Below are positions 1,512 through 14,262 of a DNA stretch of 64,000 nucleotides, piece by piece. A program made the translations under genes and the position numbers. Numbering within the stretch: position 1 is the first letter of the stretch; each line of letters opens with the position of its first letter. Source of the stretch: Variovorax sp. PAMC28562 (GTDB lineage Bacteria > Pseudomonadota > Gammaproteobacteria > Burkholderiales > Burkholderiaceae_C); the NCBI RefSeq assembly GCF_014303735.1, contig NZ_CP060296.1:1127501-1191500 (forward strand), given 5' to 3'. Below the pieces are notes generated by a model. That model was given only the letters and a program-made list of their open reading frames with translations. It made no database searches and was not told where the DNA came from.

Positions 1512-2546
1512 GTGAGTGCCAAGCGCGATCCGCAACTGCTGTTCCTTGTCGGCATCAACCTCGTTGTGTTGCTGGCCGGAGCCGTCATGTCGCGCGGGGC
1601 TTTCATCGACCCGTACAACCTTCAGTCGATGGCCGGCCAGTTGCCCGAGCTCGGCTTGCTCGCAATGGGCGTGATGTTGGCAATGAGCTCCGGCAACGGC
1701 GGCATCGATCTGTCGGGCATCTCGTTGGCCAATCTGGCCGGCGTCACTTCGGCGTTGTTGGTGTCGCCGCTTATCTCCGCCGATGACGCCCCGATACTCT
1801 TCACGGCAGCCTTCGCAGCGGTCGCCCTCGTCGTCGGATTGGTCGGCGGCATCGTCAACGGGCTTCTGATCGCACGAATCGGCCTGACTCCGATTCTGTG
1901 CACGCTGGGTACCCAACTCGTGTTCACCGGGCTGGCCGTGGTCTTGTCGGGCGGGCCGTCGGTCAGGGTCGGGAGTGCCGGGCCATTGATGGAAATCGGC
2001 AACGGCTTGGTTTTCGGGGTGCCAATTTCGTTTCTCATCTTCTGCGCCGTCATGGTGTCGGTCGGCGCGGTTCTGAAGTTCAGTCCCTTTGGCATCCGCT
2101 TGTTTCTCATGGGCACGAATCCCAAGGCGGCGCGGTACGCAGGGTTCGGACAGACCCGCCTGCTCGTCACGACCTACGGTCTTTGCGGCGTGCTTGCCGG
2201 GGTCGCCGGTGTGCTGATCGCTTCGAGAAACGTCAACGTGAAGTGGGACTACGGCCAGTCGTATCTGCTGATCGCGATTTTGATTACCGTCATGGCGGGC
2301 GTGAAGCCGGAAGGTGGCTATGGCCGGATGACTTGCCTCTTCCTGTCTGCGACGGCGCTGCAATTGCTGTCGAGCATGCTCAATTTTGCCGACGTTTCGA
2401 ACTTCTTTCGCGACTGCGCCTGGGGTGCTCTGCTTCTGGCGTTTCTCGCCATCAGCCGCTACGACATCGGCAGCCTTTTCAGACGACCGATTCGATCTGT
2501 CACCTCCTCGCTGCAGACCCCTCCTGCATCGAAGACTCTGTCCTGA
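1512..2546 (+). CDS. Sugar ABC transporter permease (first)
   Basis: A 344-residue hydrophobic protein of the RbsC/LsrC/LsrD branch of BPD_transp_2 permeases, starting at GTG 1512. About eight to ten membrane segments can be read, with the family landmarks 'GGIDLSGISLANLAG' near residue 60 and 'GGIVNGLLIARIGLTPIL' near 115, which are characteristic of inner-membrane permeases for pentoses, AI-2 and related polyols. It is the first gene of the operon and is followed after 23 bases by the binding protein. A second permease (5155-6186) suggests a heterodimeric channel. The tail after residue 325 is polar and low in similarity to the family. Confidence 0.88.
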   Translation: MSAKRDPQLLFLVGINLVVLLAGAVMSRGAFIDPYNLQSMAGQLPELGLLAMGVMLAMSSGNGGIDLSGISLANLAGVTSALLVSPLISADDAPILFTAAFAAVALVVGLVGGIVNGLLIARIGLTPILCTLGTQLVFTGLAVVLSGGPSVRVGSAGPLMEIGNGLVFGVPISFLIFCAVMVSVGAVLKFSPFGIRLFLMGTNPKAARYAGFGQTRLLVTTYGLCGVLAGVAGVLIASRNVNVKWDYGQSYLLIAILITVMAGVKPEGGYGRMTCLFLSATALQLLSSMLNFADVSNFFRDCAWGALLLAFLAISRYDIGSLFRRPIRSVTSSLQTPPASKTLS

Positions 2547-2569
2547 GGGTTTAGAAATTGGAGACTCGC

Positions 2570-3568
2570 ATGAAACGCATTTCTTTCAAGGCTTCCGTCA
2601 TCGGAGCGGCATTGGTTGCCACCGTCGGCGTGCTGAGCGCGCAAGACAAGCCCGTGATCGCGACCGTGGTCAAGATCAGCGGGATTCCATGGTTCAACCG
2701 GATGGACGTGGGTGTCAAGGAATTCGCCGCATCGAACCCAACGCTAGTGGCAAGCCAAAGCGGCCCCGCTACGGCCGACGCCGCACAGCAGCTGAAGATC
2801 ATCGACGATCTGGTCGCCAGAAAGGTCAGCGCGCTGGCCGTGGTGCCGATGGACCCGGCGGTGATCGAAGGCGTGCTCAAGCGCGCCATGGACCGCGGCA
2901 TCGTCGTGGTCACTCACGAAGCCGATAACCAGAAGAACACCAACGCCAACATCGAAGCGTTCGACAACGCCGCCTACGGCACCGCGTTGAACGAGAAGCT
3001 CGCCAACTGCATGGGCAAGCAGGGCAAGTGGACATCGTTTGTCGGATCGCTGGGAAGCCGCACCCATCTGCAGTGGGTCGATGCGGGGGCCGCGAATGCC
3101 AAGAGCTACCCGGGCATGACACTGGTCGACGCCAAGAACGAGTCATTCGACGACGCCAACAAGACCTATGAGAAAGCCAAGGAGATCCTTCGCAAGCACC
3201 CCGATATTCGCGGTTTCCAAAGCTCTGCGGGCAACGACGTGCTCGGCATCGGACGCGCCATTGAGGAGGCTGGTCTGCAAGGCAAGGTCTGCTTGGTCGG
3301 GACCGGTCTGCCCAACCCTTCTGCCAAATTGCTCGACTCTGGCGCCATCACGGCGATTGGCTTCTGGGATCCAAAAGATGCCGGCATCGCGATGAACACC
3401 GTTGCCAAGATGCTGCTTGAAAAGAAGGCTTTGACCGATGGCATCAACCTTGGCGTGAAAGGCTACGAAAAAGTCTCGGTCACCAAGGGACCCGGAACAG
3501 GATTGCTGCTCGTCGGTAACGCCATGGTCATTGCCGACAAGGTGACTTACAAGAACTACCTGTTCTGA
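2570..3568 (+). CDS. Sugar ABC transporter substrate-binding protein (LsrB/RhaS-like)
   Basis: A 332-residue periplasmic protein. The start is ATG 2570 with GGAG at 2560-2563. Residues 1-24 form a signal peptide (charged MKR, hydrophobic core, cleavage near SAQ-DK). The mature part is a type-I periplasmic binding fold with 'VVPMDPAVIEGVLKRAMDRG' and 'VVVTHEADNQ', typical of the LsrB/RhaS group that binds AI-2, rhamnose or small polyols. It delivers substrate to the permease pair encoded on either side. The exact ligand cannot be read from sequence, but the downstream dihydroxyacetone-kinase-like genes point to a ketose or a polyol oxidised to one. Confidence 0.88.
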   Translation: MKRISFKASVIGAALVATVGVLSAQDKPVIATVVKISGIPWFNRMDVGVKEFAASNPTLVASQSGPATADAAQQLKIIDDLVARKVSALAVVPMDPAVIEGVLKRAMDRGIVVVTHEADNQKNTNANIEAFDNAAYGTALNEKLANCMGKQGKWTSFVGSLGSRTHLQWVDAGAANAKSYPGMTLVDAKNESFDDANKTYEKAKEILRKHPDIRGFQSSAGNDVLGIGRAIEEAGLQGKVCLVGTGLPNPSAKLLDSGAITAIGFWDPKDAGIAMNTVAKMLLEKKALTDGINLGVKGYEKVSVTKGPGTGLLLVGNAMVIADKVTYKNYLF

Positions 3569-3595
3569 TCCGATAGAAGCAAAGCGGGCCAGACG

Positions 3596-5158
3596 ATGGA
3601 ACCACGGCAAAGCTCAGACGAGGTTGCGACTGCGCCCGCATTTCTTAAAGTACAAGGCATCCACAAACGGTTTGGGGGCGTGCATGCGCTGCGTGGCATC
3701 GACCTTCGCATTGAACGGGGTGAGATCTATCACCTGCTTGGTGAAAACGGCTGCGGCAAGAGCACGCTGATCAAGATCATCTCGGGCGCGCAGCCGCCCG
3801 ATGAAGGCGTCATCTGGCTCGACGGCACCGCTTTCAGTTCACTGACGCCGATCGAGTCGCTGACGGCGGGCATCGAAACGGTATATCAGGACTTGTCGCT
3901 GATACCCAATATGACGGTCGCCGAAAATGTGGCCTTGTCGGAGCAATTGGTGCGCTACGGCGGCCGGCTGGCACGGCGTCTGGATCGCAATGCGATGCGA
4001 TCGACAGCGCGCCGCGCCCTCGCCTCGGTCGACCTGGCGACGGACGACGTGTTTCTGGACACGATCGTCGCCGACTTGCCACTGGCCGTTCGGCAACTCC
4101 TGGCCATCGCGCGCGCCATTGCCACACGGGCCAAGCTGGTCATCATGGACGAGCCCACCACCTCGCTTACCCGAAAGGAAGTGGACAACCTGATCCGCGT
4201 GGTGGACGAACTTCGGCGAGAACGGGTGGCCGTTCTATTTGTGACCCACAAGCTCGACGAGTGCTATCGAATCGGTGGCAACGCAATCGTTTTTCGTGAT
4301 GGGCAATGCGTGGCCCAAGGACCCGTCCACAGTTACTCGAAGTCCGAGCTCGGCCACCTGATGACCGGCAAGGTCATCGATGGAAGCCGATACCGGCGCG
4401 GCAGTCCGGATGGGCAGCTTTTGTTGCGTGTCGATAACCTGGGTTGTGGAGACTCTTTTCGGGGCGTGAGTTTTCAGGTCGAGCGCGGCGAAGTGCTTGG
4501 CATTACAGGGTTGATGGACTCCGGGCGAAACGAACTGGCATTGGCCATCGCCGGCGTACTCGGTGCAACTTCCGGCGTCATCAGCATGGACGGGACGCCT
4601 ATCGCATTGACTCGACCGTCGGACGCGATCGAACACGGGATCGGTTACGTGCCGGAGGATCGACTGGCTGAAGGACTGTTCCTGGACAAGCCCATCCTGA
4701 TCAACATGAGTGCACTGATCCTGGACCGCTTGAAAAACCGCCTGGGTTTGCTCGACAGGCCCAAGGCGCGATCGATTGCAGAAGGGCTGGTCGCCGAGCT
4801 GCGCGTCATGACACCGAGTGTCGATCTCCCGGTGCAATCGCTTTCCGGCGGCAACCAGCAACGCGTTCTGATCGGACGATGGCTCACCATCCAACCCAAA
4901 CTGCTGCTGCTCCACGGTCCGACTGTCGGTGTCGACGTCGGCTCCAAAGACACGATCTACAAAGCCATCCAGGCGTTGGCCGAAAAAGGAATGGCGCTCA
5001 TCGTCATCAGCGACGATCTCCCGGAACTGCTGCAAAACTGCGACCGCATTCTGGTGATGCGTCACGGCGAGGTCGCGCGGGAATTTGCGGCCAACGATGC
5101 CGACGAAGAAAGCCTGTACGACACCATGGTGGCTGCGCAACGAGAGACCGCTTCATGA
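3596..5158 (+). CDS. Sugar ABC transporter ATP-binding protein, two NBDs
   Basis: A 520-residue fused double ATPase of the RbsA/LsrA type. NBD1 has Walker A 'GENGCGKSTL' (about residue 50) and Walker B 'LVIMDEPTT' but a weak signature ('LPLAVRQLLAIARA'). NBD2 has a degenerate Walker A ('GLMDSGRNEL'), a good signature 'LSGGNQQRVLIGRWL', and 'LLLLHGPTVGVDVGS' where the usual Asp-Glu of Walker B is His-Gly. So the only complete ATP site should combine NBD1 Walker motifs with the NBD2 signature, as is usual in this family. It overlaps the following permease by 4 bases (ATGA at 5155-5158), indicating coupled translation. Confidence 0.92.
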   Translation: MEPRQSSDEVATAPAFLKVQGIHKRFGGVHALRGIDLRIERGEIYHLLGENGCGKSTLIKIISGAQPPDEGVIWLDGTAFSSLTPIESLTAGIETVYQDLSLIPNMTVAENVALSEQLVRYGGRLARRLDRNAMRSTARRALASVDLATDDVFLDTIVADLPLAVRQLLAIARAIATRAKLVIMDEPTTSLTRKEVDNLIRVVDELRRERVAVLFVTHKLDECYRIGGNAIVFRDGQCVAQGPVHSYSKSELGHLMTGKVIDGSRYRRGSPDGQLLLRVDNLGCGDSFRGVSFQVERGEVLGITGLMDSGRNELALAIAGVLGATSGVISMDGTPIALTRPSDAIEHGIGYVPEDRLAEGLFLDKPILINMSALILDRLKNRLGLLDRPKARSIAEGLVAELRVMTPSVDLPVQSLSGGNQQRVLIGRWLTIQPKLLLLHGPTVGVDVGSKDTIYKAIQALAEKGMALIVISDDLPELLQNCDRILVMRHGEVAREFAANDADEESLYDTMVAAQRETAS

Positions 5159-6186
5159 CATCGGCCAACATCGTGATCGTCGCTCCGCCGACACGCGTGC
5201 CGTGGCCGATCCGGCTGCGGATTCGCCTCGACCGCCGCCCCGAGCTTTTCACCTTGTTCCTGCTGGTGTGCCTGTGCGCATTCGTAGGGATTGCCAATCC
5301 GGACTTCTTCCAGGCCGCGACTCTTTTCGACCTCGCGCGCTCGAGCGTGGTCACCGGGCTGTTTGCGCTGGGCGTGTTCGTTATTTTGGCGGCGGGTGGC
5401 ATCGATGTGTCCTTCACGGCAATCGCCGCACTCTCGATGTATTCGGTCACGCAACTGGTGGTGACGCACTTCCCGAGCGCGCCACTGATACTGGTGTTCG
5501 CCGCCGCAGCGCTGGGCGGCGGCGTGCTCGGCCTGATCAACGGCTTCCTGGTCCACGAACTCAAAGCGCCATCGCTCATCGTCACCATCGGCACTCAGTA
5601 CTTGTTCAGAGGATTTCTTCTGACCTTCATCGGTACGGCATGGGTCGCTTCGTTACCCGATCAAATGGACCATTTCGGCAAACTCGCCTTGATCGAGTTC
5701 GTCTCCGTACGCGGCACCAAAGCCATGTTGCCGGCGTTCTTCCTGGCGTTGCCTGCAGTCGCCGGCCTCACTTGGTGGATCCTCAATCGGACCCTCATGG
5801 GGCGCGCCATCTTTGCCACTGGCGGCAGTCGCGATGTCGCAGAGCGCCTGGGCTACAACTTGCGCGCGGTGCACTTCTTCATCTTTGCCTACACCGGCGC
5901 TCTTGCCGGGGTGGCGGGAATGATCCACGTCTGCAGCAGCCGAATGGCCAACCCGTTCGACCTGGTCGGGATGGAGATCGACGTCATCGCCGCGGTCGTA
6001 CTGGGCGGTGCGCGCATCACCGGCGGTACCGGGACCGTCACCGGCACTGTGCTGGGCGTGGTGCTGGTCGTGGTCATCAACAACGTGCTGATCATGGCGG
6101 GCGTGCCGAGTACCTGGCAGCGCCTGGTGGTCGGCGCCTTCATTCTGGTTGCAGGTGCGTTCTTTGTGGTGCGCCGCCGGCGTTGA
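5155..6186 (+). CDS. Sugar ABC transporter permease (second)
   Basis: A 343-residue inner-membrane permease of the same BPD_transp_2 family as the first, starting at ATG 5155 inside the ATPase stop codon. It has a cytoplasmic N-terminal stretch of about 30 residues, then eight or more membrane segments. Landmarks are 'GGIDVSFTAIAALSMYSV' and, late in the protein, 'VLGGARITGGTGTVTGT', the conserved cytoplasmic loop that contacts the ATPase. It is followed after 40 bases by dhaK with its own strong ribosome binding site (AAGGAG 6215-6220). Confidence 0.9.
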   Translation: MTSANIVIVAPPTRVPWPIRLRIRLDRRPELFTLFLLVCLCAFVGIANPDFFQAATLFDLARSSVVTGLFALGVFVILAAGGIDVSFTAIAALSMYSVTQLVVTHFPSAPLILVFAAAALGGGVLGLINGFLVHELKAPSLIVTIGTQYLFRGFLLTFIGTAWVASLPDQMDHFGKLALIEFVSVRGTKAMLPAFFLALPAVAGLTWWILNRTLMGRAIFATGGSRDVAERLGYNLRAVHFFIFAYTGALAGVAGMIHVCSSRMANPFDLVGMEIDVIAAVVLGGARITGGTGTVTGTVLGVVLVVVINNVLIMAGVPSTWQRLVVGAFILVAGAFFVVRRRR

Positions 6187-6226
6187 CCGTGCCAAGCGCA
6201 AGAACGAAAAACATAAGGAGAAGAAT

Positions 6227-7234
6227 ATGAAGAAGTTTTTAAATCAAGCTGAAGACTTCGTCGACGAAATGCTCGACGGCATCTACACCGCGCACCCAAA
6301 GCAGGTCGGCTTCGTAGCGCAGGATCGCCGATGCCTCGTGTCAACGCAGCCGCGTATCAAGGGCAAGGTCGGCCTTGCGACCGGCGGTGGCTCGGGGCAC
6401 TTGCCGTTGTTCCTGGGCTTCGTGGGCGCGGGTCTGCTGGACGGCGCCGCTGTCGGCGGCGTCTTCCAATCGCCGAGCGCCGACCAGATGTACGAAGTTA
6501 CCAAGGCCATCGATCAGGGTGCCGGTGTGCTCTATATCTACGGCAACTACACCGGCGATATCCTGAACTTCGACATGGCCACCGAAATGGCCGAAATGGA
6601 AAATATCCGGGTGTTGTCGGTGGTCGGCAACGACGACGTCGCTTCTTCGCCGCCAGGGCAGGAACACAAGCGGCGTGGCGTTGCAGGCACGTTCTTCGTC
6701 TTCAAGGCAGCTGGCGCCGCAGCGAGTGAAGGCATGGCCTTGGACGAAGTCAAGCGCGTTGCCGAAAAGGCCAAGGCCAATACGCGCACCATGGGCGTGG
6801 CACTGAGCAGCTGCATCGTGCCGGAGGTCGGCCACGCGACGTTTTCCATTGGTGAAGAGGAGATGGAAATCGGTATGGGAATTCACGGCGAGCCAGGCAT
6901 TCGGCGCGGCCCGTTGTTGTCGGCCGACGCGGTGGTCGACGAGATGATGCGACCCATCCTGGCTGAACGTCCTCTGGGCAAAGGCGACGAAGTCGTCGTG
7001 CTGGTGAACGGTCTCGGCGCGACACCCAAGGAGGAGTTGTACATCCTCTTTCGGCGAGTCTCGGGGATTCTGAAAGAGCGCGGAGTTTCAATCTTTCACG
7101 CCTACGTAGGCGAGTTCGCCACCGCGATGGAAATGGCGGGTGCATCGATCTCTCTGCTCTATCTGGACGATGAACTCAAGCGACTGATTGCGGCGCCAGC
7201 GCAGTCTCCGTTCTTCATGCAGAACCCGTTGTGA
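6227..7234 (+). CDS. dhaK: Dihydroxyacetone kinase-like subunit DhaK
   Basis: A 335-residue protein matching the K domain of dihydroxyacetone kinases. The start ATG 6227 is set by AAGGAG six bases upstream. 'ATGGGSGHLPLF' (near residue 50) holds the substrate-contacting Gly-Ser-Gly-His, and 'MGIHGEPGI' (near 220) holds the His that forms the covalent hemiaminal with the ketone substrate. K binds the ketose and presents it to the L subunit for phosphorylation. Its place at the end of an ABC sugar operon suggests that the imported molecule, or its oxidation product, is a short ketose such as dihydroxyacetone or erythrulose; the substrate is inferred, not proved. No PTS DhaM gene is nearby, so ATP is the likely phosphoryl donor. 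Confidence 0.88.
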   Translation: MKKFLNQAEDFVDEMLDGIYTAHPKQVGFVAQDRRCLVSTQPRIKGKVGLATGGGSGHLPLFLGFVGAGLLDGAAVGGVFQSPSADQMYEVTKAIDQGAGVLYIYGNYTGDILNFDMATEMAEMENIRVLSVVGNDDVASSPPGQEHKRRGVAGTFFVFKAAGAAASEGMALDEVKRVAEKAKANTRTMGVALSSCIVPEVGHATFSIGEEEMEIGMGIHGEPGIRRGPLLSADAVVDEMMRPILAERPLGKGDEVVVLVNGLGATPKEELYILFRRVSGILKERGVSIFHAYVGEFATAMEMAGASISLLYLDDELKRLIAAPAQSPFFMQNPL

Positions 7235-7241
7235 GGCTTGC

Positions 7242-7895
7242 ATGATGCAAAGCATCGGAAAGACTGATCTGGCCGGACTGTTCGAACGCCTGCGTGACGT
7301 TTTTGCCCAGCAACGCGCATTCCTGATCGAGCTCGATGGAAAGGTCGGCGACAGCGACTTGGGCATCACGATGAACAAGGCCTTCGCCGCTGCCTTCGTC
7401 TCGGTCCAGGCCAACACGGGCGACTCGATCGGCAAGACACTGCAGCTTGCCGGTATGGCGATCGCCAAGGCAGCGCCATCGACCATGGGCACGTTGACTG
7501 CGACCGGTTTCATGAGTGGCGGCAAGGCTCTGGGCGAATGCCTCACGCTTTCCACTGCCGAATGGAGTGTTTTCTGGCGGGCCTATCACGATGCCGTAGC
7601 GCAGCGCGGCAAGGCGCAGCCGGGCGACAAGACGGTGGTCGATGTGCTCGGTCCGATTGCAGCCTCGCTCGAATCGTCAGCAAAGACGCAATCGCCGCTG
7701 CCGGATGCGCTGACGCTGGCAACCGAGGTCGCGGCGCAAGCACTCGAAGCGACCCGCACGATGGTGGCTCAGCATGGCAAAGCCGCCTGCTTCCAGGAGC
7801 AGTCGCTGGGCCTGCAGGATGCGGGCGCGACGGTAGCGTTCCTGCTCATCGACACGCTGCGTGCTTTCGCCACGCAAGACGAAAGCACGAAATAA
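7242..7895 (+). CDS. dhaL: Dihydroxyacetone kinase-like subunit DhaL
   Basis: A 217-residue helical protein of the DAK2/DhaL family that carries the nucleotide in the kinase. 'DGKVGDSDLGITMNKAF' (near residue 33) contains the acidic residues that chelate Mg-ATP, and 'APSTMGTLTATGF' (near 78) and 'LQDAGATVAFLLID' (near 195) are the other nucleotide-site segments. It begins 7 bases after dhaK at ATG-ATG 7242, so the two subunits are surely co-translated. Unlike fungal or Citrobacter enzymes, the two domains are separate polypeptides. A 3-hydroxyisobutyrate-dehydrogenase-family remnant follows immediately. Confidence 0.85.
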   Translation: MMQSIGKTDLAGLFERLRDVFAQQRAFLIELDGKVGDSDLGITMNKAFAAAFVSVQANTGDSIGKTLQLAGMAIAKAAPSTMGTLTATGFMSGGKALGECLTLSTAEWSVFWRAYHDAVAQRGKAQPGDKTVVDVLGPIAASLESSAKTQSPLPDALTLATEVAAQALEATRTMVAQHGKAACFQEQSLGLQDAGATVAFLLIDTLRAFATQDESTK

Positions 7896-8109: not shown

Positions 8110-9696
8110 TCAAGACTCGAGTCCCGCGAAGTGGCCGCGCGTGAAGGCCTCTTCGAAGATCGAATAGCCCGACCAGTCGGCGTGCGCGAAGGCCAGTCGG
8201 CCGCTCACGATGCGTTCTCTTCTTTGCGCGGCACCCAATTGGGTCAGCAGCCCCGGCGTCGGCATTGCCATGGCATGCCCGTAGCGCGTGATGTCGATGC
8301 GCGTCGTGAGCGAAGGCAAGTCCGGATGCGGCACCGACAACTCGGCGAGCAGGTCGTCACGCCAGCCGCTCCATGGCCGGTCGAGCAACAGCTTTCGACC
8401 ATCGCCCGTATCGCTCGCGCTCGGGCCTAACGGGCGGTACCAGCTCAGCACGGTCGGTGCGGGCGTCGGGTCGAGCGTCTGATGGCGCGCATCGACGTAG
8501 CCCAGGCCGGGCGTATCGTAGACGAGGTTATCCCAGCTCGGCGCAGCGCCGTGCCCGTTGTCGCCGAGCGGCGCGCGCAAATGCACGTTGGCGACGAGCC
8601 ACGGTGCGTAGCGCACGTTGGCCGCTGCATTGCGAAGTACGGCGGGCGAGTTCTCGACCACACGTGCCGCGATGAAGACCGGCAGCGCGACGATGCAACG
8701 CTCGGCCTCCCAGCGCATCGTCGTATTCGTCGCGGCATCGAATGCATCGACCTCGACGCCGGATCGCGATTCGGCAATGCGCGTGACAGCATGTGCCACT
8801 TTGATCCGGTCGCCGAGTGGCCCGACCATACGACGCGCGAGCCACGCATTGCCTTCGGGCCATGTCAACACAGCGTCGCGTTCTCCGCTGTCGTCGCCCG
8901 GCGCATGGAAGCCGTGTCGGCTTGCAAAGTAATGGATGCCAGCCCAGGCCGAGACGTGTGCGAGGCCAGCGCCGTAGTCGTCGCGGCAGCAATAGTCGAG
9001 GTACCAGCGCAGATGCGTGTCACCGAGGCTTTCCTGGTCGAGCCATGCCGCGAAGCTGACCGCATCGAGCGCCAGCATCTCGGGCGTCGCTGCCATCTTT
9101 GCCATTGGGATGGCGAACCGCGTCTTGCGCTGCGACGCTTCGACGCGGGAAGCAAAGAGCCTGTACTGCGCGAGCGTCGACTCGGTCACGCCATGCACCG
9201 GCAGCAGGCCTTCTTGCCACTCGCCTTGAAAGAACAGCCGCTCCTGCGGGCTGTGGCACAAGTTGCGCTCGTCGTACTCCCAACGGCCACTCACGCGCTT
9301 GCGCAAGCCGAGTTCTTCGAGCAGGTCTTGCACTTCGCTCGCGTCATCGCCGGGCACCGGCAGGTAGTGGGCACCGAGTGGGCAGGCGATGCCTTCCAAC
9401 ATCCCACCGCGGCTGTTGCCGCCAGCGCTGTCTTCCAGTTCGAGCAGCACGAAGTCATCGATGCCGGAGAGTCGCAGTGCGCGCGCGGCGGCCAGGCCCG
9501 CCACGCCGCCGCCAGCGATCACGACACGTGTGCGGAACACTGTTGTCGGCGTCGATGCCTTCAGCGCACCGTCCCGCAGCGCATGGCCTCGTGCCACTTC
9601 GATGCCGGTGAAGCCGCCCTCGATCGACTGTGGGGCGTCGCAGCCGGCGAGCGCCAGGGCGCCTGCGGTCGCCGCGATGAAATCTCGCCGCTTCAA
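8110..9696 (-). CDS. Tat-exported FAD-dependent amine oxidase-like lipoprotein
   Basis: A 528-residue flavoprotein. I place the start at TTG 9694-9696, overlapping the TGA of the upstream gene and preceded by AAGGTGG, because it gives an N-terminus 'MKRRDFIAATAGALALAGC': a twin-arginine-like signal with a lipobox (LAGC). The frame continues open to 9717. The dinucleotide-binding motif 'VVIAGGGVAGLAAARAL' follows at about residue 58, then 'ELEDSAGGNSRGG', as in monoamine and polyamine oxidases. It likely acts at the outer face of the inner membrane. Being last in an operon with a spermidine-synthase-like gene, it may oxidise a polyamine product, which is inference. The substrate is unknown. 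Confidence 0.72.
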   Translation of the reverse strand: MKRRDFIAATAGALALAGCDAPQSIEGGFTGIEVARGHALRDGALKASTPTTVFRTRVVIAGGGVAGLAAARALRLSGIDDFVLLELEDSAGGNSRGGMLEGIACPLGAHYLPVPGDDASEVQDLLEELGLRKRVSGRWEYDERNLCHSPQERLFFQGEWQEGLLPVHGVTESTLAQYRLFASRVEASQRKTRFAIPMAKMAATPEMLALDAVSFAAWLDQESLGDTHLRWYLDYCCRDDYGAGLAHVSAWAGIHYFASRHGFHAPGDDSGERDAVLTWPEGNAWLARRMVGPLGDRIKVAHAVTRIAESRSGVEVDAFDAATNTTMRWEAERCIVALPVFIAARVVENSPAVLRNAAANVRYAPWLVANVHLRAPLGDNGHGAAPSWDNLVYDTPGLGYVDARHQTLDPTPAPTVLSWYRPLGPSASDTGDGRKLLLDRPWSGWRDDLLAELSVPHPDLPSLTTRIDITRYGHAMAMPTPGLLTQLGAAQRRERIVSGRLAFAHADWSGYSIFEEAFTRGHFAGLES

Positions 9697-11243
9697 TGCG
9701 CGACCACCTTGCCCCACTCGCTCTCGTAAGTGGTCACCAGGATCTGGTTCGACAGCCGGTTGACCTCAGTCGGCACGCGTGCCATGTCGAGTGGAAAGTC
9801 GAACATCAGCGGCAGCGTCGCCGCCGACAAAAAGCGCAGGCCGCCAGGCAGCGCGTCAGGTGCGCGCCATGGCCGGCGGCTCGCGATGATGAAGCCCCAT
9901 TCGCCAAAGCTTGGCACATGCACGTGATACGGCGTGGCCGTGAGCCCCACCGATTCGATGGTCGTCGCGACGGTCCAGAAACTCTTGCGCGCAACCAGCG
10001 GGGACGTGGTCTGGATCACTGCATAGCCACTCGCAGAAAGCCGCTTTTCGAGCAGCGCGTAGAAGCTGTTCGTGTAGAGCTTGCCGATCGCGAAGTTGGT
10101 CGGGTCCGGGAAGTCGACGACGATGACATCGAACATGTCGCCGGGTTGCTGCAGCCATTGGAAGGCATCGGTGTTGACGATCTTCACCTTGGGCGATTTC
10201 AGAGAACCACCGTTAAGCGCAGCCAGCGTCTCATGGTCGGTAAAGAGCTTCGTCATGTTCGGGTCGAGCTCGACCAGCGTGACCTCTTCGACCGACGGGT
10301 ATTTGAGGATTTCGCGCACGGCCATGCCATCGCCGCCGCCCAGCACCGCAACGCGCTTTGGCGCACCTTGCGCCGCCATGACCGGATGCACCAGCGCTTC
10401 GTGATAGCGGTACTCGTCACGCTCGGCGAATTGCAGATTGCCGTTCAAGAACAAGCGATGCCCGAGCAGGCCACGCGTGACGACGATGCGCTGGTACGGT
10501 GACGTGGTGCTGAACACGATGCGGTCTTGATAAAACTTGTCTTCGGCCAGCGTCGTGATGTGGTTAGCAAACACGAAGGCGGTGCCGATCGCGATCAGCG
10601 CCAATGCACAAGCCGTTGCATGCGCGCCGATGCCGCGCAGCTCATGCCGGAACAGCCAGAGCGTCCACACGGCCACCGCCGCATTCATGAATCCGAACAG
10701 CAGGCCGGTGCGGATCATGCCGAGCTGCGGCACCAGCACCAGCGGAAAAGCGATCGATACAGCCAGTGCGCCGAGGTAGTCGAAGGTCAGCACCTGCGAC
10801 ACCAGATCTTTCAGCAGCACGTTGCGCCGAAGGATGCGCATGACCAGCGGAATCTCCAGCCCTACCAGCGTGCCGACAATCATCACGAGCCCGTAGAGCA
10901 GCAGTCGAAACGAACCCGGCAGGTACGCGTTGGCGAGAAAGAGGATGGCCGGCAACGAGCCGCCGACAACAGCCACCAGCAGTTCGATGCGCAGAAAGTG
11001 CGCGGGCAACTGCCGATCGAAATAGCGCGAGAGCCACGAGCCCACGCCCATGGCAAACAGATAGGTGCCGATGATGGTGCTGAACTGCAGCACCGAGTCG
11101 CCGAGCAGGTAGGAACTCAGCGCTGCCGCGCTCAGTTCGTACACCAGCCCGCAGGCCGCGACGACGAAGACGCTCGCGAGCAGCGCAATTTCGACCGGCT
11201 GCGGGCCTGTCGAGCGAGGCCCGCTCAGCGCACTGTCGGTCAA
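9693..11243 (-). CDS. Membrane-anchored spermidine synthase-like protein
   Basis: A 516-residue protein with about seven membrane segments in its first 210 residues and a cytosolic SAM-binding domain after residue 250. The catalytic half has 'VAVLGGGDGMAVREIL' (nucleotide-binding Gly loop), 'VTLVELDPNM' (acidic residue for the aminopropyl donor) and 'VIVVDFPDPTNF', matching the DxxDP segment of aminopropyltransferases. Start is TTG 11241-11243, overlapping the TGA of the DUF350 gene in ATTGA; the upstream reading frame lies inside that gene. It likely transfers an aminopropyl or related group, but a change of substrate is possible because the membrane-fused class is little characterised. It overlaps the next gene by 4 bases. 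Confidence 0.75.
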   Translation of the reverse strand: MTDSALSGPRSTGPQPVEIALLASVFVVAACGLVYELSAAALSSYLLGDSVLQFSTIIGTYLFAMGVGSWLSRYFDRQLPAHFLRIELLVAVVGGSLPAILFLANAYLPGSFRLLLYGLVMIVGTLVGLEIPLVMRILRRNVLLKDLVSQVLTFDYLGALAVSIAFPLVLVPQLGMIRTGLLFGFMNAAVAVWTLWLFRHELRGIGAHATACALALIAIGTAFVFANHITTLAEDKFYQDRIVFSTTSPYQRIVVTRGLLGHRLFLNGNLQFAERDEYRYHEALVHPVMAAQGAPKRVAVLGGGDGMAVREILKYPSVEEVTLVELDPNMTKLFTDHETLAALNGGSLKSPKVKIVNTDAFQWLQQPGDMFDVIVVDFPDPTNFAIGKLYTNSFYALLEKRLSASGYAVIQTTSPLVARKSFWTVATTIESVGLTATPYHVHVPSFGEWGFIIASRRPWRAPDALPGGLRFLSAATLPLMFDFPLDMARVPTEVNRLSNQILVTTYESEWGKVVAH

Positions 11244-11458
11244 TGAATCGCAGCGGCAACGATGATGCAGATCCCGAGGCTCATGGCCGCGACCACCAAC
11301 CCCAAGGCCACGTTGTGCTTCTCGACGATTTCGTGCCAGAGGTCGTAGGGCGTGAGCTTGTCGATGATCAAAAAGCACAGCCAGAAGATCAGCACGCCGA
11401 TCAGCGCGAAGACCAGCGACGACAGGATCACGCCCGGCTTCAAATATTCAAATCCCAT
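11240..11458 (-). CDS. DUF350 small membrane protein (YjfL-like)
   Basis: A 72-residue inner-membrane protein with two hydrophobic helices: about residues 10-32 and 48-70. 'PGVILSSLVFALIGVLIFWL' and the charged linker 'DKLTPYDLWHEIVEKHNVAL' match the DUF350 domain, of which E. coli YjfL has two copies. A good site, GGAGGT, lies 8-9 bases before ATG 11458. It sits between the DUF4178 gene and the spermidine-synthase-like gene with stop-start overlap on the latter. Function unknown; family genes recur next to PspA, SPFH and polyamine-related genes, suggesting a membrane-stress role. Confidence 0.8.
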   Translation of the reverse strand: MGFEYLKPGVILSSLVFALIGVLIFWLCFLIIDKLTPYDLWHEIVEKHNVALGLVVAAMSLGICIIVAAAIH

Positions 11459-11485
11459 GATGAGGACCTCCGGAAAAAATGGATG

Positions 11486-12970
11486 TCATTTGTGGCCACC
11501 ACCACTCGAAAAACCGCCGTATGAGCCGCCCGAGCTCCGTGAGCCGCCCGACGAGCTGCTGCAAGTGCTAAGGATGATCAACAGAACAATGATCACCACA
11601 CCGATCAGGATGATGGTGCCGCAGCCCAGGCCAGATCCCAACGCCGCACTCACCGGCAGCACGTCGCCGCGCTTGAACATGTCCTTCTTCGCATCGAGCT
11701 TGAACGCGCTGGCCACTGTCGCGCTGTCGAGCTTGCCACCGGAAGACCATGTCAGCTCGTTCGCCGAACGCTCCATGGACAACAGTGTGGCGCCGGCCGC
11801 GAAGTCACGGTTGAAAGTCTTTTGCCCACGCTCAACTTTCCAGTAGAACTCCCCCGCCACATAGGTCGTCTCGGCGTTGTAGGCGTACTGCTGCTGAAAG
11901 CGCTTGCCCATGTACGTGGCAGCGGAACCGCTTTCGGCCATGGTGGGCGCGCCGGTGGTCGGCTGCACCATGCTCCAGCCGTCGGTCGCGTCGACCAGAA
12001 AGCTGAAGCCGCGCTTCTTGTTGTAGAGCAGGTATTCGTCCCAGCCGAACATCTCGTCGTCGCCGGGCTCCTGCCCCATTCGATGCTGAAACCCAACCAC
12101 CTGCCACGACGCGCCTTGCAGCTGCCCGAGTGCACCGAGCGCGATGAGCGGGCGCACCGGCTCGGCTTGCTCGGCGTGCTTCAGTTCACCGCCGATCCCC
12201 TGCGTCAGGTCGATGATGCTGTTGCATGCGCGGCAGGTAATGGTCTTGCTGTCGGCGAAGTTGACCGTGACCGGCGCGCCGCAGTTCGGGCAATTGAAGC
12301 CGCGGCCTTTTTCTTCTTTGCCCGATTCGTCGCGCAAGCCGGCGAGCTGCAGGTCTTCGAGCAGCACCGATCGACCCAGGCTGGCCGCGGGCGGCATGCT
12401 GCCGTAATCCAGGCTCAGCACCAGGCCCTGGTCGTTACGCAGTTCGACCATCGCGAACGGTTTGCCGAGATCGGGCAGCTTCGGCAGCTCGCCTTGCGCC
12501 GACACCAGCGTCACTTGCTGGTTCGACGCGACGGTGTAGTTCTGGCCGTTGAACGCGGTGGTCGCGCCGACGACCAATGCTCCGGCCGACGGCGCCGGCT
12601 GCTTCAGCTCGTACGGCAGCGTGAAGACGTAGGCGCCGTTGTCTTCGCTGAGCGTGCCCGTGCGGTCGCCGTCGAGTCGCGCGATCCACTCGGTCCAGCG
12701 GCCGCCTTCGTAGGCGTACTGCAGACGACCGACCAGCGTGAAGGGCTTGTCCTGGATGCGACCGGCGGCAAAGAGCTGCAACGGGCTGAAGTCGTCGAAC
12801 AGCTCGGCCATCTTGCCGATGCGCGCCAGCGTGTCGCCCTGTCGCACGACAGTGCTCTGGCAATAAGGGCAAATGGCGAACGTCGACTGCGCCGACCGGA
12901 ATTCGACCGGCGCGCCGCAGCCGGGACACGGCGCGCGGTAGTAGCGCTGGCTGCCGGTGGCGTCAGCCAC
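11486..12970 (-). CDS. Double zinc-ribbon DUF4178 protein with C-terminal membrane anchor
   Basis: A 494-residue protein with an internal duplication. Each half opens with a zinc ribbon: Cys15, Cys18, Cys34, Cys37 ('CPGC...CPYC'), and again near residue 226 ('CPNC...CRAC'). Each ribbon is followed by a DUF4178 beta-rich domain (about 55-190 and 275-420; 'GFSFLVDATDGWSM' in the second). A single strong membrane helix (about 445-468) is followed by a Ser/Gly-rich tail ending 'SSGGGHK'. There is no signal peptide, so the domains should be cytosolic and tethered at the membrane. It is the second gene of a five-gene operon. Its biochemical role is unknown. Confidence 0.72.
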   Translation of the reverse strand: MADATGSQRYYRAPCPGCGAPVEFRSAQSTFAICPYCQSTVVRQGDTLARIGKMAELFDDFSPLQLFAAGRIQDKPFTLVGRLQYAYEGGRWTEWIARLDGDRTGTLSEDNGAYVFTLPYELKQPAPSAGALVVGATTAFNGQNYTVASNQQVTLVSAQGELPKLPDLGKPFAMVELRNDQGLVLSLDYGSMPPAASLGRSVLLEDLQLAGLRDESGKEEKGRGFNCPNCGAPVTVNFADSKTITCRACNSIIDLTQGIGGELKHAEQAEPVRPLIALGALGQLQGASWQVVGFQHRMGQEPGDDEMFGWDEYLLYNKKRGFSFLVDATDGWSMVQPTTGAPTMAESGSAATYMGKRFQQQYAYNAETTYVAGEFYWKVERGQKTFNRDFAAGATLLSMERSANELTWSSGGKLDSATVASAFKLDAKKDMFKRGDVLPVSAALGSGLGCGTIILIGVVIIVLLIILSTCSSSSGGSRSSGGSYGGFSSGGGHK

Positions 12971-13013
12971 GGCACACGCGCCACGGGGGCGCTGTCAGGA
13001 CCATGTCGCGCGT

Positions 13014-14072
13014 CTAGACAAGCTTCTTGAGCAGGTCGGCCTTCTTGGCGTCGAACTCTTCCTGCGTGAGGATGCCCTTGGTCTTGAGCTCGCCGAGCTT
13101 TTCGAGCGTGGTCATGACATCGGCGGGGCTGACGACCGCGACCGACGGTTGCGCCGCTGCGGCAGCGCTCGCGGCGGCTGCGGCGTTGTTGTTCGGATTC
13201 AGGCCCTGCGCCAGGTTCTGCGCCATCACCTGGCCGAGCGCCACACCGGCCCCCAGGCCCATTGCGTCGCCCGCGATGCCACCGCCGCTGGCCGAGCCCT
13301 CGGCAAACTTCGGAATCGCCTGCGCGGTCTGGTATTGCATGAACTTGCCCATGTCGTTGCCGACCATGCCCATGCCGATCTTCTGGTCGAGGATCTTCTG
13401 CAGCTCCTCGGGCAGCGACACGTTCTGGACCGTGATGTTCTCGAGCTTGATGCCGATCTTCGCGAACTCGGGCACGAGTTGCGCGGCCAACGCTTGCGCA
13501 AAGCTGATCTGGTTGGCCGCCAGGTCGAGAAACGGCACGCCGCTGGAGGCGATAGCGTTGCTGATGTTCTGCAGCACGATGCCGCGCAACTGGCCATCGA
13601 GATCGGTCACGCTGTAGATGTCGCGCGTGCCCGAAATCTCGTTATAAAACAGCTTGGGGTCGGCAATCCGATAGCTGTAGTTGCCAAAGGCTCGCACACG
13701 CACCGCGCCGAAGTCCTTGTCGCGGATCGTGATGGGCTGCGGCGTTCCCCACTTCTGGTCGATCTGCTGGCGCGTGCTGAAAAAGTAGACGTCGCTTTTG
13801 AATGGCGACTCGAAGAGCTTGTCCCAGTTCTTCAGGTACGTGAGCACCGGCAGCGTCTGCGTGGTGAGCTTGTACATGCCGGGCCCGAAGACGTCGGCGA
13901 CCTTGCCCTCGTTCACGAACAGCGCGATCTGCGATTCGCGCACGGTAAGCGAGCCGCCGTTCTGGATTTCCATCTCCGCCATCGGGAAGCGCCAGGCCAG
14001 CGTGCCATCGCCGGTCTCGGTCCACTGGATGATGTCGATGAACTGTTTCTTGATGAAATCCATCAGCGCCAT
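13014..14072 (-). CDS. SPFH-domain protein (virion-core-protein-like) with C-terminal SHOCT motif
   Basis: A 352-residue protein. Start ATG 14072 has GGAG 7 bases upstream; the longer open frame to 14312 overlaps the divergent maeB gene and is not coding. The first 230 residues resemble SPFH/prohibitin-type scaffolds of the YdjI group ('GGSLTVRESQIALFVNEG', 'DVFGPGMYKL'). They are followed by an Ala/Gly-rich linker and a terminal SHOCT module ('LKTKGILTQEEFDAKKADLL') that is usually an oligomerisation helix. It has no signal peptide or membrane helix and probably assembles on the inner membrane face. As first gene of the operon it likely scaffolds the DUF4178, DUF350 and spermidine-synthase-like proteins. 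Confidence 0.75.
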   Translation of the reverse strand: MALMDFIKKQFIDIIQWTETGDGTLAWRFPMAEMEIQNGGSLTVRESQIALFVNEGKVADVFGPGMYKLTTQTLPVLTYLKNWDKLFESPFKSDVYFFSTRQQIDQKWGTPQPITIRDKDFGAVRVRAFGNYSYRIADPKLFYNEISGTRDIYSVTDLDGQLRGIVLQNISNAIASSGVPFLDLAANQISFAQALAAQLVPEFAKIGIKLENITVQNVSLPEELQKILDQKIGMGMVGNDMGKFMQYQTAQAIPKFAEGSASGGGIAGDAMGLGAGVALGQVMAQNLAQGLNPNNNAAAAASAAAAAQPSVAVVSPADVMTTLEKLGELKTKGILTQEEFDAKKADLLKKLV

Positions 14073-14262
14073 GGTCGCTCCTCGTCCGGAATGTGCCGGG
14101 GTGGTTTTTGAGCTGGGGATATTGCCACATTGCCCCGCACGGCCCCACGGATTTCGGGCGTGCTCGGCTCTGCCATGCGGCCTATGTCGGGCGGGGTCGA
14201 GGTCTACAATCGGCGCCCCCAGAAGAAGCGCGATTGCAGCGCAGCCCAAGGAGCCCAGGCCC

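Follow-up and report, generated by a model that had tools for sequence, protein, structure and literature searches.

A PspA-less, SPFH-linked operon of Variovorax whose membrane-fused aminopropyltransferase may act on a membrane-near acceptor

A 64,000-nucleotide stretch of the genome of Variovorax sp. PAMC28562 (GCF_014303735.1; a single 4.69 Mb contig, NZ_CP060296.1), comprising forward-strand bases 1127501-1191500 and referred to here as the window, contains an operon of five genes. These encode an SPFH protein with a C-terminal SHOCT domain, a DUF4178 protein, a DUF350 membrane protein, a membrane-fused aminopropyltransferase (SpeE), and a lipoprotein flavoenzyme with a twin-arginine translocation (Tat) signal. 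Together with a nearby gene, speD, for an S-adenosylmethionine (SAM) decarboxylase, the operon tends to be retained or missing as a whole among close relatives. Our tentative reading, which we hold with something less than confidence, is that these genes form a PspA-less, SPFH-linked module that aminopropylates a membrane-near acceptor other than putrescine and whose product is oxidised in the periplasm. The evidence for this reading comprises the linkage and co-occurrence of the genes, the residues that are fixed in the two enzymes, and the export signals of the flavoenzyme.

The five open reading frames lie on the minus strand where an initial annotation of this DNA had placed them, and its description of five leftward genes with short gaps or stop-start overlaps proved accurate. 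The SpeE and flavoenzyme genes each have a 4-nt overlap (TTGA) between their start and the TGA that ends the gene before, which suggests translational coupling, and the remaining gaps are 27 and 43 nt. The family assignments all hold above curated profile cut-offs: PF13421 at 257.4 bits and SHOCT at 35.5 bits for the SPFH protein, 99.9 bits across two DUF4178 stretches, 55.3 bits for DUF350, 680.8 bits (cut-off 472) for SpeE as a polyamine aminopropyltransferase (PRK03612/NF002956), and 66.1 bits (cut-off 19.8) for the flavoenzyme as a PF01593 amine oxidase, as expected of a flavin adenine dinucleotide (FAD)-binding fold. From its TTG start the flavoenzyme has the same length as P0121, to which it is 97% identical; another protein of the operon is 98% identical to P0002, and both of these matches are named Variovorax.

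DUF4178 led to 216 named loci, and linkage was surveyed in the best 80 of these, most of which are from Variovorax. At 69 of these 80 loci, all five genes adjoin one another, point the same way, and keep this order. Of the other 11 loci, 4 are truncated by the end of a contig, and the arrangement of the remaining 7 is altered by an insertion, a rearrangement, or a wider gap. In L100 there is a wider gap; L122, L132, and L134 are interrupted by an insertion between DUF350 and SpeE, and L127 by one between SpeE and the flavoenzyme; L124 and L131 have no SpeE at the locus. A full membrane-SpeE is encoded elsewhere in the L124 genome, and in the L131 genome a membrane-SpeE fragment of 285.6 bits lies at the end of a contig, in addition to a soluble-type match of 158.6 bits.

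Presence and absence were compared in a total of 121 genomes, namely that of PAMC28562 and 120 relatives; 73 of the 121 belong to the same genus, and the other 48 represent other families of the same order, with one genome per family. The queries were DUF4178, membrane-SpeE (scored at the profile cut-off), the flavoenzyme (scored at E up to 1e-30), and SpeD. DUF4178 was found in 74 genomes, comprising 69 of the 73 from the genus and 5 of the 48 from other families. All 72 genomes with membrane-SpeE over the cut-off and all 73 genomes with the flavoenzyme are among these 74. The exceptions are G022 (88% complete), which has a 339-bit SpeE fragment at a contig end and no flavoenzyme, and G068 (58% complete), which has a 151-bit SpeE fragment. 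In the other families, the same 5 of 48 genomes carry all three proteins, and this pattern of 5/5 versus 0/43 would arise by chance with a probability of about 6e-7 by arithmetic that assumes independent genomes. Fragmentary genomes apart, DUF4178, membrane-SpeE, and the flavoenzyme share one presence/absence pattern. Linkage of the genes in relatives, as the initial annotation had supposed, is thereby borne out by contiguity, and their standing as a module by co-occurrence. A chance neighbourhood is ruled out by the contiguity at 69 of 80 loci and the shared presence/absence pattern. A plasmid origin was also rejected, as a single partial match was found (6% coverage, in a 3.5 Mb Burkholderia arboris record). 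Two genomes of the same genus, G003 and G057 (99% and 90% complete, respectively), have no DUF4178, no flavoenzyme, no membrane-SpeE over the cut-off, and no SpeD, and are apparent absences of the whole module. In a class-wide sample of 281 genomes (PAMC28562 included), DUF4178 is rare, occurring in 6 genomes (PAMC28562 included), 5 of them over the cut-off; SpeD, found in 161 of the 281, is too common to inform.

The initial annotation had seen neither a SAM decarboxylase gene nor a PspA gene in the window. For PspA this stands, as no PF04012 match was found in the whole genome (the control matched in 9 of 14 genomes). For the decarboxylase it needs correction: SpeD, the sole AdoMet_dc match of the genome (G000:C1:1125117-1125470, plus strand), is encoded only about 2 kb to the left of the window and about 14 kb from DUF4178, and it belongs to the module by co-occurrence. 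SpeD was found in 80 of the 121 genomes, and 73 of these 80 also encode DUF4178 (68 in the genus and 5 in other families). In the other 7 (G087, G090, G092, G094, G108, G110, and G120), a soluble SpeE adjoins SpeD or is fused to it, the fusions being in G087, G092, and G110. The association of SpeD with DUF4178 in the 48 other-family genomes has a Fisher p of 4.6e-4. Where a genus genome has both genes on one contig (56 of 56 such genomes), their starts are 6.2-45.7 kb apart, with a median of 12.3 kb; in 12 genus genomes the two genes are on different contigs. The distance in other families is 0.8-4.7 kb in G076, G085, G093, and G104, with the genes on different contigs in G074, and in Rhodoferax sp. 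OV413 (L127) the SpeD gene immediately precedes that of SPFH in the same orientation.

Conservation was assessed in alignments from which rows of less than about 70% of the reference length (56% for SpeE), as well as L056, a repeat of L045, were excluded. It should be noted that some genomes are present twice (e.g., L046/L087, L047/L116, L048/L098, and L051/L068) and row counts are therefore not independent; distinct C-terminal sequences number 86 among the 92 rows for SpeE, 78 among 84 for the flavoenzyme, and 30 among 34 for SpeD. The pyruvoyl-site motif of SpeD is intact, with E67, S68, H69, H73, T74, and E77 in 34/34 rows. In SpeE, numbered by a 557-residue reference and not by the 516-aa TTG form, the catalytic residues of a spermidine synthase (GGGDG, DxxDP, Q292, Y321, and H322) are present in 92/92 rows, as are Q312, E318, D346, D368, D400, D418, D421, P422, S455, and W490; E366 is Glu in 85 rows and Asp in 7. 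Five further positions are fixed in 92/92 rows of membrane-SpeE and differ from a set of 7 soluble SpeEs of the same order. These are N308 (Asp in all 7, and in all five aligned solved relatives), W464 (R, Q, A, or H), H481 (varied), F487 (Tyr in all 7), and E489 (S, A, or C). Q312 is replaced by Met in all 7 soluble SpeEs, yet some solved relatives have Gln. Position 487, which we take to be Tyr241 of the putrescine site of the human enzyme, is Tyr in 6bq2 and 1iy9; the change at F487 would not be diagnostic alone because Phe is found in 1uir, 3anx, and 7xif. Overall, the pattern fits an enzyme with an intact donor half and an altered acceptor half, although it names no acceptor, and the five differently fixed positions would argue against putrescine in that role without being decisive. 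SpeE is the only PF01564 protein over the cut-off in the genome. A second canonical SpeE was looked for and rejected: the sole other PF01564 match (L142) is below the cut-off, is below the PRK04457 cut-off as well, and lacks GGGDG.

The N-terminal signal of the flavoenzyme, M(TTG)KRRDF...LAGC, combines a twin-arginine motif with a lipobox. The twin Arg is kept in 84/84 rows, the lipobox Cys in 83/84, and the FAD glycines (GxGxxG) in 84/84, and C244-R-D-D and D396 are also fixed. Because signal, FAD, and other residues are all fixed, the flavoenzyme is, as judged from its alignment, under strong constraint. Degeneration of the two enzymes, which the initial annotation had named as grounds for abandoning its proposal, is ruled out by the invariant SpeE and FAD sites. 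In amine oxidases, a lysine near flavin N5 is the usual flavin-contacting residue. The position of this lysine in monoamine and polyamine oxidases is occupied in the flavoenzyme by Asn377 (Asn370 from the TTG start), which aligns with Lys296 of the putrescine oxidase 2yg6 and is Asn in 83/84 rows. Because Asn replaces lysine, a dehydrogenase-like or otherwise altered reaction is possible. The label "amine oxidase-like" is thus right, and "amine oxidase" is unproven.

These enzymes could also be accounted for by an ordinary spermidine pathway, in which SpeD and a membrane-tethered SpeE would make free spermidine for export and the flavoenzyme would be a periplasmic spermidine oxidase. The match of SpeE to the NCBIfam polyamine aminopropyltransferase above its cut-off, its intact catalytic residues, and the finding that putrescine oxidases are the flavoenzyme's best matches among solved structures (E 1.8e-8) are all consistent with such a pathway, as is the surface spermidine produced by a speD-speE cluster of Pseudomonas aeruginosa (PMC3572637). 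However, Asn308, Trp464, His481, Phe487, and Glu489 are fixed in 92/92 rows of membrane-SpeE, unlike in the 7 soluble SpeEs, and Asn takes the place of the lysine in the flavoenzyme. Moreover, G299, a genome of the same family that is outside the 121, encodes DUF4178, DUF350, membrane-SpeE (76% identical), and the flavoenzyme (50% identical) together and, in another part of the genome, a soluble-type SpeD-SpeE fusion of 448 codons (loci L140 and L141). Membrane-SpeE therefore coexists with an ordinary SpeE in G299 rather than replacing it, which argues that it is not simply a spermidine synthase. On balance, the ordinary pathway appears unlikely, if still a serious contender. The proposal of the initial annotation that a polyamine-like product is made at the membrane and oxidised outside it, as a putative envelope-stress response, survives in part: the intact aminopropyltransferase site and the exported lipoprotein flavoenzyme agree with it, and a free polyamine is doubtful given the fixed residues of SpeE and the reported failure of such fusions to substitute for spermidine synthase (Li et al. 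2019).

The remaining proteins suggest how a module acting on a non-putrescine, membrane-near acceptor might be assembled. By a simple hydropathy scan, the SPFH protein, the single PF13421 match in the whole genome, has no membrane segment. The DUF4178 protein has two zinc ribbons, CPGC/CPYC (residues 15-37) and CPNC/CRAC (227-249), whose cysteines are conserved in 94-96 of the 96 aligned rows; towards its end there is a single strong membrane segment (449-467), followed by a Gly/Ser tail. DUF350, also a single match in the genome, has two membrane segments, and SpeE has about six that precede its aminopropyltransferase domain. In the proposed mechanism, the nearby SpeD would decarboxylate SAM to decarboxylated SAM (dcAdoMet), whose aminopropyl group membrane-fused SpeE would pass on to an acceptor located within or next to the inner membrane, and not to free putrescine, with release of methylthioadenosine (MTA). 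The Tat-exported, lipid-anchored flavoenzyme would then act in the periplasm to remove or mature the product, or an amine related to it. The SPFH-SHOCT protein, lacking an anchor of its own, could be held at the membrane by the zinc-ribbon DUF4178 protein, as YdjI is by YdjG and YdjH, and could gather the enzyme into a membrane assembly with DUF350.

Several observations weigh against this mechanism. In the genus, SpeD is convergent with the operon, kilobases away, and outside it, and in the four other class-wide genomes with DUF4178 over the cut-off SpeD is far away or on another contig. G299 indicates that the module can exist without its own SpeD, relying on the decarboxylase of the ordinary pathway, and the decarboxylase may not be universal to the module because Corynebacterium glutamicum, a control, matches DUF4178, DUF350, and PF01564 and has no match to AdoMet_dc (PF02675). 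Similarity searches of the G093, G173, and G299 loci (20 kb for G299) did not recover the SPFH protein, so that DUF4178 and membrane-SpeE look like the more constant pair. The flavoenzyme is likewise separable: it is on another contig in G104, is not beside SpeE in L122, L124, and L134, and, of three gammaproteobacterial loci, was found in L138 but not in L137 or L139; its tie to the module is looser than that of SpeE. Split or stop-carrying matches were obtained for SpeE in G025, G028, and G085 and for the flavoenzyme in G019 and G039. Lastly, the acceptor-side interpretation of the SpeE residues depends on their presumed correspondence to positions of human spermidine synthase (SpdSyn).

A more specific form of the membrane-acceptor proposal is a reversible, positive-charge modification of the envelope, in which a lipid headgroup or a membrane protein would be aminopropylated on the cytoplasmic face and oxidised by the lysine-less flavoenzyme in the periplasm, with SPFH as a PspA-independent platform. 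This elaboration is speculative, and we consider it rather unlikely in this form. The SPFH, DUF4178, and DUF350 proteins could instead constitute a structural envelope-stress module that holds the membrane, the aminopropyl enzymes serving to tune a polyamine or a dcAdoMet/MTA signal. Genes for TelA and PF10112, which we take to be stress-linked, are indeed located between SPFH and SpeE in the gammaproteobacterial locus L137, and YdjI and its membrane partners act in membrane stress in Bacillus subtilis (PMC8581546). Nevertheless, the tight co-occurrence with constrained enzymes, the lack of a PspA match in the genome, and the absence of SPFH nearby in some distant members make a chiefly structural role improbable. 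An anti-phage defence system is very improbable: the membrane theme, the restriction genes between DUF350 and SpeE in L122 and L132, and a PADLOC match to mad2 (56 bits) in the SpeE domain hint at one, but the mad2 match spans residues 289-454 only and could stem from a SAM-binding fold common to both, the remaining PADLOC matches are weak, and the module is present in 69 of 73 genus genomes, whereas defence genes are usually patchy. A known defence system was rejected on the same grounds, since PADLOC gave partial or weak matches only and no several-protein match.

Should the acceptor prove to be in the membrane, the module would represent a new envelope modification and would help to explain why polyamine enzymes are encoded beside SPFH and PspA genes. 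The one AdoMet_dc match and the one PF01564 protein over the cut-off in this genome are both tied to the module, and its product may thus be the main use of dcAdoMet in bacteria of this kind. Single-copy genes, a compact operon, and relatives with an ordinary SpeD-SpeE pair make the question of the acceptor directly testable in this harmless soil bacterium.

Table 1. Features of the operon and of the adjoining intergenic region, in positions of the window.
Feature	Coordinates	Strand	Likely start	Basis
SPFH (PF13421 Band_7_1) + C-terminal SHOCT protein, 352 aa	13014..14072	-	ATG 14072	profile match, hydropathy
DUF4178 protein, 494 aa	11486..12970	-	GTG 12970	profile match, alignment, hydropathy
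DUF350 membrane protein, 72 aa	11240..11458	-	ATG 11458	profile match, hydropathy
Membrane-fused aminopropyltransferase SpeE (PRK03612/NF002956), 516 aa	9693..11243	-	TTG 11243	profile match, alignment
Tat-signal lipoprotein flavoenzyme (PF01593-like), 528 aa	8110..9696	-	TTG 9696	profile match, alignment
Divergent intergenic region between SPFH and a malic-enzyme gene (named by eye; its ATG 14263 chosen by eye)	14073..14262	.		

Upstream of SPFH there is a partly conserved TGTGGCAATAT-like stretch, and the upstream alignment otherwise has only short conserved stretches. A scan of the divergent intergenic region for sigma-70-type promoters gave no match, and terminator-like sites were about as frequent as expected (5 observed versus 5.2 expected). 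On the plus strand, window positions 1512-7895 carry genes that, by eye, resemble those of a sugar-type transporter and DhaK/DhaL, between the operon and the neighbourhood of an M24 peptidase and speD; these genes seem, by eye, to be absent in compact relatives such as L049. The junction of DUF350 and SpeE is an insertion spot (L122:11878-18175, L132:11846-19128, and L134:11969-16563), where the inserts encode a type III-like DNA methylase and a ResIII helicase (L122 and L132), AlbA_2/Schlafen-like proteins (L122 and L134), a GmrSD restriction enzyme (L132), and a TonB receptor (L134). Immediately upstream of SPFH, a small gene in the opposite orientation was observed at L122:8350-8595, L131:8391-8783, and L132:8320-8652; it encodes DUF2061 in L122, and those of L131 and L132 were recognised by eye only. 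In the gammaproteobacterial locus, the TelA and PF10112 genes occupy L137:4333-6418, PF10112 presumably being XpaC.

Membrane-fused SpdSyn is also the subject of work by Li et al. (2019, Biochem J), which reportedly found that it does not replace spermidine synthase, with no complementation and no spermidine. That work is said to describe a SAM decarboxylase (AdoMetDC) with a SpdSyn fused to a major facilitator superfamily (MFS) domain and DUF350, and to have suggested a non-polyamine acceptor. By that description, the two systems are alike in a class 1b-size SpeD with an intact motif, a membrane-fused SpdSyn, and DUF350; a module with SPFH, DUF4178, and the flavoenzyme was, reportedly, not analysed. 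A different comparison is offered by SpeE2 of Pseudomonas aeruginosa, which, to the best of our knowledge, is soluble. It is encoded in PA4773-PA4775, whose speD-speE pair is reported to make surface spermidine (PMC3572637) and serves the cell surface, as the pair in Variovorax would. SpeE2 has 349 aa, its product is reported differently by different authors, and no SPFH, DUF4178, or DUF350 is named in the available text of those papers (PMC3572637, PMC11107197).

The SPFH component has a counterpart in B. subtilis, where, according to the parts of the report available, YdjI is predicted to be soluble, depends on YdjG and YdjH for its membrane localisation, and is required to localise PspA there (PMC8581546). 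Controls with PF13421 matches were B. subtilis, Lactococcus lactis, Sulfolobus acidocaldarius, and Methanosarcina acetivorans. In both systems an SPFH protein without an anchor of its own is encoded with an integral membrane partner, and by analogy we infer a possible parallel between YdjI and its partners and the SPFH-SHOCT and DUF4178 proteins. The differences are that YdjI recruits PspA, of which the Variovorax genome has no match, and that no aminopropyl enzymes are described with it in the available text (PMC8581546).

The closest precedent is the work of Ravi et al. (2024; PMC11237479), the only source of DUF4178 in the literature searched. In the part of the paper that was available, the second major group of PSP-associated operons is described with a membrane-fused SpdSyn, DUF350, a lipoprotein, DUF4178, and a PspA-CesT/Tir dyad, as is a variant with band-7/SHOCT, an AdoMet decarboxylase, and a polyamine oxidase. 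These authors suggest the monitoring of polyamine concentration, or of the aminopropylation of other substrates, and a link to membrane dynamics. The PspA-CesT/Tir group and the Variovorax operon share membrane-fused SpdSyn, DUF350, DUF4178, and a lipoprotein in one operon, but the latter is led by SPFH-SHOCT in a genome without a PspA match, and its lipoprotein is the Tat-type flavoenzyme. The band-7/SHOCT variant resembles the Variovorax operon in having a band-7 and SHOCT protein instead of PspA-CesT/Tir, and an AdoMet decarboxylase and a polyamine oxidase are named for it. That variant, however, belongs to an ATP-grasp group and has a band-7 protein with two transmembrane segments (2TM), whereas the Variovorax SPFH protein has none by simple hydropathy and its five genes include no ATP-grasp gene, its SpeE is membrane-fused, and its flavoenzyme is encoded in the operon with SpeD nearby but outside. 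The PspA-less five-gene form, its SpeD pattern, the contrast in SpeE, and the Tat-lipoprotein, lysine-less oxidase were not found in the available text of PMC11237479. The view of the initial annotation that no pathway is established fits the literature seen, though similar operons have been described (PMC11237479), and the operon of Variovorax sp. PAMC28562 is a variant of an already described kind, with a gene set that is not new.

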